Positions 22,255 to 30,397 of a DNA stretch of 64,000 nucleotides are shown piece after piece (position 1 is the stretch's first letter; each line of letters starts with the position of its first letter). Origin of the DNA: Tateyamaria omphalii (GTDB lineage: Bacteria; Pseudomonadota; Alphaproteobacteria; Rhodobacterales; Rhodobacteraceae). Made by a program: the position numbers and the translations under genes. The stretch covers positions 1,612,001-1,676,000 of the forward strand of contig NZ_CP019312.1 of NCBI RefSeq assembly GCF_001969365.1, in the 5' to 3' direction. The notes beneath the pieces are model-generated. The model was not told the origin of the DNA. It did not search any database and saw only the letters and a program-made list of their open reading frames with translations.

Positions 22255-23322
22255 TCAGGCGCGCGCGAAGACGTCAAAGAACGCCTCGAATTCCATGGTG
22301 GACGCGATGGTTGCCTCCAACAGCAGGGCAGCATCATCTTCCAGCGCGCTGAACACGTAGTCGGACATGTGCCCCCAGTCTTTGCTGCGCGTTTGCGATG
22401 CGGCAAAGAGCGCGCCTGACACCCCGCGCAGGGCGCTTGGCCGGTATTGCTGTTGATCAAAGCGCACGCGCCCGACAGGAATGGCCGCCCCCGTGTCATC
22501 GTGGCCAAGAACCTGAGCCGCCCAATTTGCCACAAGGTATTCGTGGTAGTCATCCGGCCCGCTCACCGCGTCGTCCGCGACCACTGCAAACGCGCCCATC
22601 GCCGTGCGCGCCGCATCGACCCAGACCGCGTTGGGCTCCTGCCCTGCATGTTTCAAAGCAATGCAAACCTCGGCCAGCAGGTCGATGTTTTGATCCATAT
22701 GCGCAAGGATGCCGACATATTCGAGGCTGCGCAGCGCGCCTGCATCCAGGTTCGGATCACGCCGCCCGTATTCCGACAGGTAAAAGACGATATGCGTCAG
22801 CTCATACGCCGCCTTTTTGTTCGGCAAACCGAACGTCTCTGCCCGACCGATGAACGCCCGCAATCGGGTGTCCAGGTCGGGATCGGCGGCCTTGCAGCAC
22901 ACACCCCGCCGTTCAAGCAGCCGTCGTGCCTCGGCGCGTTGCAGATCACTCAGTTCGGCATCGGGCAGCCCCTGCGCGGCGACCCAGTGGCACAAGCCCT
23001 CCATCTGCGCATCCACGCCGGTGCCCCGCACCCCCAGATCTTCCAGATCCAGACCGATGGACAGCAGGAAGCGGTAGTATTGTGGAAAGAACCTTAACCG
23101 CTCTTTCAGCCCCGCGTAGAAATCGACATGCGGATCAAGTGCTGCGTCGCTGACCTGCATCCCCGTACATTCGAGGATGCTGAGCAGTTCGGCGTTTTCC
23201 TTCAGCCAGAAGACATCGTCGGGGATCCGGCGCTGCGTGGCAAAAAGGTCAATCAGCCTGTCCGTCCGGTCGGCCATGCGCTGGCGGCGCGGCGGGACAT
23301 TGAGCGCAATGATGTTTGACAT
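22255..23322 (-). CDS. helical protein of unknown function, partner of the repeat protein
   Basis: I do not recognise this 355-residue protein. It is predicted to be all helical and soluble, with no signal peptide or membrane segment. Notable segments are RFFPQYYRFLLSIGLDLEDLG (78-98), a vicinal Cys142-Cys143, YELTHIVFYLSEYG (173-186), which looks like a conserved core, and a histidine/aspartate-rich C-terminal half. GAAAGGAC precedes the ATG at 23322 by a normal distance. It starts 46 bp after the repeat-protein gene and must share its transcript. A processing, binding or chaperone role for the repeat protein is inference from this pairing only. Confidence 0.8.
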   Translation of the reverse strand: MSNIIALNVPPRRQRMADRTDRLIDLFATQRRIPDDVFWLKENAELLSILECTGMQVSDAALDPHVDFYAGLKERLRFFPQYYRFLLSIGLDLEDLGVRGTGVDAQMEGLCHWVAAQGLPDAELSDLQRAEARRLLERRGVCCKAADPDLDTRLRAFIGRAETFGLPNKKAAYELTHIVFYLSEYGRRDPNLDAGALRSLEYVGILAHMDQNIDLLAEVCIALKHAGQEPNAVWVDAARTAMGAFAVVADDAVSGPDDYHEYLVANWAAQVLGHDDTGAAIPVGRVRFDQQQYRPSALRGVSGALFAASQTRSKDWGHMSDYVFSALEDDAALLLEATIASTMEFEAFFDVFARA

Positions 23323-23368
23323 AAGTCGCGTCCTTTCATGTGCTGTGGTCATGTCCCGCCAACGCGGG

Positions 23369-23887
23369 TCAGGAGCCCGAGGAGAACAGGCCGGTGACGT
23401 CACCTTGGGTCACGGTGCCTGTTACGGGGCCGGAACCGGACGAAAACGCGCCGGTCGCATCGCCGGATGCCGCCTCCGAAGTCAGGGGGCCGCTGCTGGT
23501 CGAGAAGAGTTCAACCCCGTCACCGGCCGCAGTTTCGATCGCCGCAGGCGCACTGCTGGTCGAGAACAATTCCACACCATCGCCCAGGGTGGCATCCGTT
23601 GCGACAGGTGCGCTGCTGGTCGAGAACATCTCGACCCCGTCGCCCATCGTTGTGTCGGTCGCAAACGGCGCGCTGCTGGTGGAAAACAGGTGTGTTCCGT
23701 CCCCGACGGTTGCGTCTGTTGCCATTGGGGCACTGCTGGTCGAGAACATCTCGACACCTTCACCGAGGATGGTCTCGAATGCGCCGGGTGCGCTGCTGGT
23801 CGAAAACAGATCGACCCCGTCGCCAGCGTGCAAGCCACCGATTGCGGAGGTATCGAGAGCGACGTTGATTTTGCGTTGGGCTGTCAT
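23369..23887 (-). CDS. 20-residue tandem-repeat acidic protein, unknown family
   Basis: The 172-residue product has a 21-residue leader (MTAQRKINVALDTSAIGG...) followed by seven exact 20-residue repeats and an eighth partial one of 11 residues. The consensus is GDGVE-L/M-FSTSSAP followed by about seven variable residues ending before the next Gly. Gly1, Phe7, Ser8 and Ser11 are invariant. After residue 6 there is no Lys, Arg or Cys, so the repeats are acidic and rich in Ser/Thr. There is no signal peptide or membrane segment. AAGGA precedes the ATG. The last repeats diverge (FSSGSGP). It heads a two-gene operon. It could be a structural or secreted repeat protein or a multi-core peptide precursor. 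Confidence 0.82.
   Translation of the reverse strand: MTAQRKINVALDTSAIGGLHAGDGVDLFSTSSAPGAFETILGEGVEMFSTSSAPMATDATVGDGTHLFSTSSAPFATDTTMGDGVEMFSTSSAPVATDATLGDGVELFSTSSAPAAIETAAGDGVELFSTSSGPLTSEAASGDATGAFSSGSGPVTGTVTQGDVTGLFSSGS
23372..23824 (-). repeat. tandem 60-bp coding repeat, 7.5 copies
   Basis: The repeat units start on the minus strand at 23824, 23764, 23704, 23644, 23584, 23524, 23464 and (partial) 23404. The best-conserved DNA is the segment encoding FSTSSAP. Units 1-5 are closest to each other; units 6-8 drift. The in-frame 60-bp period allows copy-number change without a frameshift. Confidence 0.95.
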
Positions 23888-23918
23888 GGCTGAATTCCTT
23901 TCGCCTTTGGGTTGTGAC

Positions 23919-29173: not shown

Positions 29174-30397
29174 ATGACCCAAATCGACGATACCCGCGCC
29201 AAGCGCAACGTGGCCGTCCTTGTGGCGGCGCAGGCCTTCCTTGGCAGCCAGATCACCATGATGTTCGTGGTCGCTGGACTGGCCGGACAGCAGCTGACAC
29301 CTTTTGCCTGCCTCGCCACACTGCCCATTTCGCTGATCGTGTTCGGGTCGATGACCACGGCCCCTTGGCTGTCGAATGTGATGCAGCGCTTCGGACGCAA
29401 ATCGGGGTTCATCATCGGTGCCTTTGGCGGGCTGCTCGGGGCCGCCATCGGGGTCTGGGCGCTGAGTATCGGCAGTTTCTGGCTGTTTCTGGTGGGCAGT
29501 TACATGACGGGAATCTACATGTCGGCACAAGGCTTCTATCGCTTTGCCGCGGCTGACACCGCATCGGACGCCTTTCGGCCGAAGGCCATTTCCTACGTCA
29601 TGGCAGGCGGGCTTTTGTCGGCCATCATCGGCCCGCAGGTCGTGGGCTATGTCACCGCAGACACGGCAGACGCGACCGTGGCACGGTACATCCCGATCTA
29701 CTGGGTTGCGATGGGCTTCAACCTGATGGGCATGGCGCTGTTCTTCCTGCTCGACATCCCCAAGCCGCCCGCACCTTCGGCCACGGACGGCCCTGGCCGC
29801 AGCCGCAAGGAACTGCTGCGCGACCCGCGCATCGCCGTGGCCGTGATCTGTGCTGCGGTGTCCTATGCGCTGATGAACCTGGTGATGACGTCGACCCCGC
29901 TCGCCGTCGTCGGCTGCGGCTTTACCGAGCCGGACGCCGCGAATGTCGTCACCGTACACGTGCTGGCCATGTTTGCACCGTCCTTCTTCACCGGCCACCT
30001 GATTTCGCGCTTCGGGGCAGAGACGATCATGGGGCTGGGCCTTGCCATCCTCGGCGTTGCAGGGCTGGTGGCGTTGCAGGGCGTGGACCTCGCCAACTTT
30101 TACTGGGCGCTGTTCTTCCTGGGAATCGGCTGGAACTTCGGGTTCATCGGCGCAACCACCATGCTGTCGAGCGCCCACAGCGCGCAGGAGCGCGGCCGCA
30201 TGCAGGGCATGAACGATCTGATCGTCTTTGGCGGGGTGACCGTTGCCTCGCTGGCCTCGGGCGGTTTGATGAATTGCGCAGGCGGTGACGCCGTCGAAGG
30301 CTGGGCAGCCGTCAACATCGCCATGGTGCCGTTCCTTGTGCTGGCAGGCGGGTCGCTGATCTGGCTGGTGATGCGTCAACGGGCCGTTACGGCTTAG
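29174..30397 (+). CDS. major facilitator superfamily transporter
   Basis: This 407-residue integral membrane protein has about 12 predicted membrane helices. It shows the MFS loop signature variant RFGRKSGFIIGAFGGLLG between helices 2 and 3, and a long central loop (PKPPAPSATDGPGRSRKELL). The substrate is unknown. It is divergent from cobK by 91 bp and ends against a hairpin shared with the convergent gene. Confidence 0.9.
   Translation: MTQIDDTRAKRNVAVLVAAQAFLGSQITMMFVVAGLAGQQLTPFACLATLPISLIVFGSMTTAPWLSNVMQRFGRKSGFIIGAFGGLLGAAIGVWALSIGSFWLFLVGSYMTGIYMSAQGFYRFAAADTASDAFRPKAISYVMAGGLLSAIIGPQVVGYVTADTADATVARYIPIYWVAMGFNLMGMALFFLLDIPKPPAPSATDGPGRSRKELLRDPRIAVAVICAAVSYALMNLVMTSTPLAVVGCGFTEPDAANVVTVHVLAMFAPSFFTGHLISRFGAETIMGLGLAILGVAGLVALQGVDLANFYWALFFLGIGWNFGFIGATTMLSSAHSAQERGRMQGMNDLIVFGGVTVASLASGGLMNCAGGDAVEGWAAVNIAMVPFLVLAGGSLIWLVMRQRAVTA

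Follow-up and report, generated by a model that had tools for sequence, protein, structure and literature searches.

What is a protein that consists, after a short leader, of one 20-residue unit repeated in perfect register, and what does the gene that follows it do? The question is raised by two genes in the window, by which we mean the whole 64,000-nucleotide stretch of Tateyamaria omphalii DNA that was analyzed. The elements that bear on it are these:

23369..23887, minus strand: coding sequence of the repeat protein (putative precursor), 172 aa, ATG start
23825..23887, minus strand: leader, residues 1-21 (MTAQRK...); the family consensus start is MTAxxK
23372..23824, minus strand: repeat region, made of seven units of 20 residues and a closing half unit whose exact end is FSSGS; six FSTSS and two FSSGS cores
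23896..23901, minus strand: AAAGGA, Shine-Dalgarno-like, read directly from the sequence, 8 bases 5' of the precursor ATG
22255..23322, minus strand: DUF6902 protein, 355 aa, starting 46 bases past the precursor stop on the same strand
23331..23336, minus strand: AAAGGA, again Shine-Dalgarno-like and read directly, 8 bases 5' of the DUF6902 ATG
29174-30397: MFS protein, 5.3 kb from the pair, with no visible link to it

The repeat gene and its constant partner

The 151 residues that follow the leader divide into seven complete units of 20 residues and a half unit of 11, and the eight cores stand exactly 20 residues apart at all seven spacings. The initial annotation had read a strict 20-residue period after a 21-residue leader, and this stands: lag-20 identity is 0.54, a value reached by none of 5,000 shuffles (best 0.225, lags 5 to 59). 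It was also right that Gly1, Phe7, Ser8, and Ser11 never change, as all eight units carry them, and that Lys, Arg, and Cys are absent from residue 7 onward, R5 and K6 being the only such residues in the protein. Its "seven and a half exact repeats" holds for the period and for the count of seven units plus a half, but not for the units themselves, which are not identical: cores 1 to 6 are FSTSS and the last two are FSSGS. The gene is single-copy in the genome; the one other row of the search lies antisense to the gene itself (E 0.44). Neither Pfam nor NCBIfam gave the protein a credible match, and two of its relatives bear the NCBI name "DUF6749 domain-containing protein." By eye there is no signal peptide, and the repeat protein would meet DUF6902 in the cytoplasm.

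How constant is the partnership? In a survey of 248 genomes of the window's family, which scored the precursor at E ≤ 1e-6 and at most 12 candidates per genome, DUF6902 is present in 69 genomes and the repeat protein in 65, all of them among those 69. The 179 genomes lacking DUF6902 gave no precursor at that threshold. Wherever both are found (65/65), the precursor lies upstream on the same strand, at most 489 bases from the nearest matching piece. As for the four DUF6902 genomes short of a precursor match, G533 and G479 have short two-unit open reading frames (ORFs) in the precursor's place, recognized by eye with the cores MMCCS and YIAGL; in G572 the DUF6902 locus sits at a contig end; and G477 is described below. 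A profile scan of genome contigs gave 180 stretches encoding DUF6902, of which 80 were kept, making 81 loci with the window. A repeat ORF lies upstream of DUF6902 in all 81, in two of them only in part (L060, with three cores and a 100-base run of N, and L050, with two cores), where it is partly missing from the data. At least three patterned cores occur in 77 loci, and L048 and L053, recognized by eye and outside the core pattern, show the same architecture with other cores.

Within the window's genus, 19 of 20 genomes encode DUF6902, the window's genome included, and the closest named relatives are Tateyamaria. The flanks are nearly constant (divergent xthA, 73 of 74 loci; convergent iscA-type gene, 71 of 78), so the cassette is passed on at a single site. 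Most peptide-antibiotic clusters, by contrast, are not fixed in this way, so a housekeeping or structural role is possible. The genes between 15 and 33 kb of the window are of the housekeeping kind (ScpA, ScpB, a family-3 glycosidase, SPOR, ArgS, an HD phosphohydrolase, a CobK-type reductase, and others), along with a carboxylesterase-type hydrolase whose link to the pair is not visible. Among these 17 neighbors there is neither a RiPP-type protease nor a peptide exporter, and none of the neighboring genes scanned gives a LanM/LanC-type, ATP-grasp, YcaO, or rSAM match.

Cores uniform within proteins and different between species

What part of the repeat is being preserved? The pattern used to locate cores demands Ser/Thr at position 3 and restricts positions 1, 2, and 5, so that decayed units could escape it. 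The spacings served to check for this: 498 of 524 measure 20 or 21, and only one looks as if a unit had been skipped (a VSSCS core in L036). The statistics cover 77 proteins with at least three patterned cores, 599 units in all; FSTRL in L068 was counted as a core but matches by chance, within an over-long ORF start. Core identity (within/between proteins) is 0.99/0.47 at position 2, 0.91/0.72 at position 3, 0.91/0.48 at position 4, and 0.95/0.67 at position 5. Position 1 is constant everywhere (0.94/0.94), as is the Gly six residues earlier (0.97/0.96), while at spacer positions +3 to +7 identity is only 0.32 to 0.39 even within proteins.

Selection at the codon level follows the same lines. 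In pairwise comparisons within proteins, which are not mutually independent, pN/pS is 0.13 for cores, 0.42 for the six preceding residues, and 0.80 for spacers, with pS at 0.55 to 0.60 throughout. For the window's repeat protein alone the figures are 0.26, 0.43, and 0.66. At core position 4, where the search pattern accepts any residue, pN is 0.08, against 0.44 to 0.51 in spacers. Given the similar pS across regions, the repeat copies look equally old, with mainly the cores being held. Purifying selection on the cores is strong.

Within any one protein the pentapeptide core is uniform, and between species it changes, with 19 majority core types. All cores are identical at positions 2 to 5 in 62 of the 77 proteins, whereas random dealing of 601 cores, a control that ignores the shared ancestry of units, gives a mean of 0.39 such proteins and a maximum of 4. 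FSSGS is the commonest majority core in the family (26/77), and the window's protein has it as the last core, as do all 13 of the Tateyamaria loci L001-L013. FSTSS therefore looks derived, and the first suggestion that the FSSGS end units mean "decay or a cap" is not supported. On a FastTree tree that has many weak forks and 24 core changes, and that was used only for this grouping and for the closeness of L016 and L021, the FSTSS proteins form one supported group of 7 inside the Tateyamaria rows. The L016/L021 pair illustrates a joint switch: six cores are all FSSGS in one protein and seven are all FTSGS in the other. By eye, the spacers allow the first, second, and last units of the two proteins to be paired with one another, and the last cores differ by one base (tct versus act).

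Proteins carry 3 to 20 units, and the protein ends exactly with a core in 68 of 79 cases, running 3 to 7 residues past it in the other 11. This C-terminal position hints that a unit ends with its core. Ser/Thr is universal at no core position, as seen in FTCGL (L053) and IMSAS (L048) and, by eye, in MMCCS (G533) and YIAGL (G479). Some arrays have layouts of their own. Three Ruegeria loci (L019, L038, and L049) have FSSGS as first and last cores and STSC-type cores between, as if expansion had replaced the inner units. In L036, L037, L052, and L071, pairs of cores 8 residues apart (e.g., FSSCSVELFSSCS) alternate with the 20/21-residue spacing. Some arrays, in L015 and L045, resemble recent duplications.

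DUF6902, its relatives, and what it may do to the cores

The codons of DUF6902 that matter most here are the following:

22792..22794, minus strand: His177, invariant
22681..22683, minus strand: Asp214, invariant
22669..22671, minus strand: Glu218, invariant
22543..22548, minus strand: Tyr259-His260, invariant

The neighbor protein matches PF21843 (DUF6902) over its full length (E 1.7e-153, positions 1-351 of 351) and is homologous to the DUF6895 family, PF21836 (E 1.9e-22, 80.4 bits against a curated cut-off of 23.8). These are its only Pfam matches at E ≤ 1, with no ATP-grasp, LanM, or LanC-type match among them. Its structure model has a pLDDT of 89.7. None of the 81 DUF6902 rows departs from H177, D214, E218, Y259, and H260, nor does any of 20 diverged DUF6895/DUF6902 proteins (10 of each, G477 left out). 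In the G477 relative (L107:1331-2428) all five polar residues are lost, and no repeat ORF lies upstream of it among ORFs longer than 55 aa. The invariance together with this joint loss, which is a single case, looks catalytic, and the five residues may well form one catalytic site.

What do DUF6895 proteins do elsewhere? A title cited in PMC13352647 (Shi et al., ACS Catal. 2026) calls one member a lasso-peptide epimerase. We read nine DUF6895 loci outside the window's family: L096 to L098, four on plasmids (Kitasatospora, Pseudalkalibacillus, and two Streptomyces), and L111 and L112 from Pseudomonadota. A small precursor-like ORF is found upstream of DUF6895 in eight of the nine, other phyla included, with one intervening gene in L104; in L111 no small ORF was seen in the 570 bases upstream, where ORFs of at least 56 aa were listed. 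These loci yield nine small proteins, one locus contributing two. When the nine sequences are compared, 33 of 72 ordered pairs have E < 0.05, against 13 of 1,440 in a shuffled control; similarity connects eight of the proteins, and the one from Streptomyces fungicidicus stays apart. A small precursor-like protein thus seems, as a rule, to accompany the DUF6895/DUF6902 group. Two modules can be made out by eye in the small ORFs of L097, L098, and L112, but these precursors bear no visible resemblance to the window's repeat protein.

Several of these loci hold further genes. In the 903-aa protein of L111:571-3282, a DUF6895 domain (residues 311-590) is fused to one of phosphotransferase type (PF01636, 662-830), which may carry out a second tailoring step. 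An ORF without a Pfam match follows DUF6895 in two loci (L096:7581-8576 and L102:7670-8317); in two others its counterpart is instead the C-terminal half of the DUF6895 protein (L101:6983-8737 and L103:6722-8455), and these ORFs may represent a conserved companion. Two tandem DUF6895 genes on the Streptomyces fungicidicus plasmid (L104:3451-8688) may form an uncharacterized cluster with a P450, a beta-lactamase-fold hydrolase, and an ORF of 62 aa.

How might the pair work? On balance, we think it somewhat probable that the repeat protein serves as a multi-core precursor, that DUF6902 modifies its cores, most likely by C-alpha epimerization, and that the two genes are a self-contained cassette. 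The precursor would be cytoplasmic, with a short leader and tandem pentapeptide cores (FSTSS) in a 20-residue frame, the last core ending the protein. DUF6902, as an alpha/alpha-toroid-like enzyme of the DUF6895 kind, would bind the repeats and act on each core at the predicted site formed by H177, D214, E218, Y259, and H260, most likely leaving a D-residue. A protease encoded elsewhere would later cut the units free, and the product might serve as a signal, an antagonist, or a coat. Epimerization is suggested by one title and by distant homology: with no universal Ser/Thr in the core, chemistry on the side chain of a fixed residue is less likely, and this together with the family link to an epimerase makes the backbone reaction the best guess. 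It is possible, though doubtful, that the pair even stands for an undescribed ribosomal peptide class, in which a two-gene cassette at a fixed site, with a stand-alone toroid epimerase, places D-residues in each copy of a tandem-core precursor and so yields one species-specific peptide many times over. Copies that agree within a strain and change as one between species are what a signal or self-recognition peptide would lead one to expect. The pair was not found described in the literature searched by names, core strings, and topics.

Could the whole repeat protein be the finished product? It would then be a beta-solenoid or amyloid-like structural or surface protein, matured by DUF6902, and no peptides would be released. 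AlphaFold2 does propose a beta-solenoid-like model with two strands per 20-residue unit, but with low confidence (pLDDT 68.2, pTM 0.56), and the program is reported to draw beta-solenoids that are not realistic when the repeats are perfect (PMC11795689). Foldseek with this low-confidence model gives no match at E ≤ 0.001, though the FapC (E 0.86) and CsgA (E 6.2) fibrils appear in low-ranking rows; together with the Pfam and NCBIfam searches, this leaves the repeat protein without a match to a known structural family, the outcome that the initial annotation had named as removing the precursor idea. The range of 3 to 20 units would suit such a protein, as would the lack of a protease or peptide exporter among the genes scanned at 15 to 33 kb, while the absence, by eye, of a signal peptide and a spacer pN/pS of 0.80, looser than a solenoid would lead one to expect, would not. 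We regard this main rival as unlikely. The initial annotation had called precursor and structural protein equally possible; the dedicated enzyme-like partner at every DUF6902 locus fetched, the selection on the cores, and the homology to DUF6895 leave the precursor better supported and the structural option weakened.

The multi-core precursor could also be modified by another chemistry, with DUF6902 carrying out dehydration, cyclization, or group transfer on Ser/Thr. The cores are rich in these residues, the toroid arrangement also houses transferases and cyclases (VIA rows), and no DUF6902 activity was found in the literature searched. Against this, FTCGL, IMSAS, MMCCS, and YIAGL deprive the dehydration or ester chemistry foreseen at the outset of a Ser/Thr position kept in every relative, the DUF6902 gene has no ATP-grasp or LanC-type match, and the family link, by the title in PMC13352647, is to an epimerase; such chemistry seems quite improbable. 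A noncatalytic DUF6902, binding an unmodified repeat protein as chaperone, immunity protein, or regulator, would fit co-occurrence and adjacency as any obligate partner does, but it is hard to square with a catalytic-looking H, D, E, Y, H set that is invariant in 20 of 20 diverged proteins and jointly lost in G477, and we give it little credence. Functionless low-complexity repeats kept neutrally by slippage would account for the variable repeat number and for arrays of the L015 and L045 kind. They would not account for strong purifying selection on cores amid high synonymous change, nor for the strict co-occurrence with DUF6902, and this explanation is very strongly disfavored.

The implications are 4-fold. 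(i) The DUF6749-named repeat proteins and DUF6902, two uncharacterized families, acquire one testable function, in 69 of the 248 family genomes sampled. (ii) The role of DUF6895-type proteins as peptide-modifying partners would seem to extend beyond lasso peptides. (iii) The 19 majority core types and an apparently site-dead homologue (G477) are a natural series for the study of specificity. (iv) In evolutionary terms, too, it is unusual for all cores to have switched jointly between close relatives.

Comparison with known systems

Multi-core RiPP precursors include those of cyanobactins, multi-core graspetides, and the like. The window's pair has the same layout, with a leader, several copies of a short core, and an adjacent, here putative, modifying gene; the repeat protein combines its leader with repeated conserved cores and variable spacers, as such precursors do. 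It differs in the lack of an ATP-grasp, YcaO, LanM, or rSAM match or a peptide exporter among the neighbors scanned, in having up to 20 near-identical cores, and in its fixed chromosomal site. Fungal alpha-pheromone precursors also carry tandem identical short cores that are uniform within a species and different between species, much as in the repeat protein, but they are secreted through the ER, are cut by Kex2, and have no modifying enzyme of the DUF6902 kind.

The DUF6895 family shares with DUF6902 its five invariant polar residues and, in eight of nine loci, a small precursor-like ORF nearby. Here, however, the precursor has a different leader and a tandem-repeat build, DUF6902 has a Pfam family of its own, and the lasso B protease (Transglut_core3, PF13471) has no match in the window's genome. 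A further lasso-peptide epimerase, MslH, performs C-alpha epimerization of a ribosomal peptide (PMC10406935), as is proposed for DUF6902. MslH is metal dependent and acts on a C-terminal residue, whereas most cores of the window's repeat protein are internal. The folds of MslH and DUF6902 differ as well. Overall, the precursor interpretation is partly supported and has been sharpened to that of an enzyme-precursor pair, one that looks like an undescribed way to modified peptides in which DUF6902 probably modifies each motif. The pair would belong with the already known multi-core modified peptides, as a variant of them.
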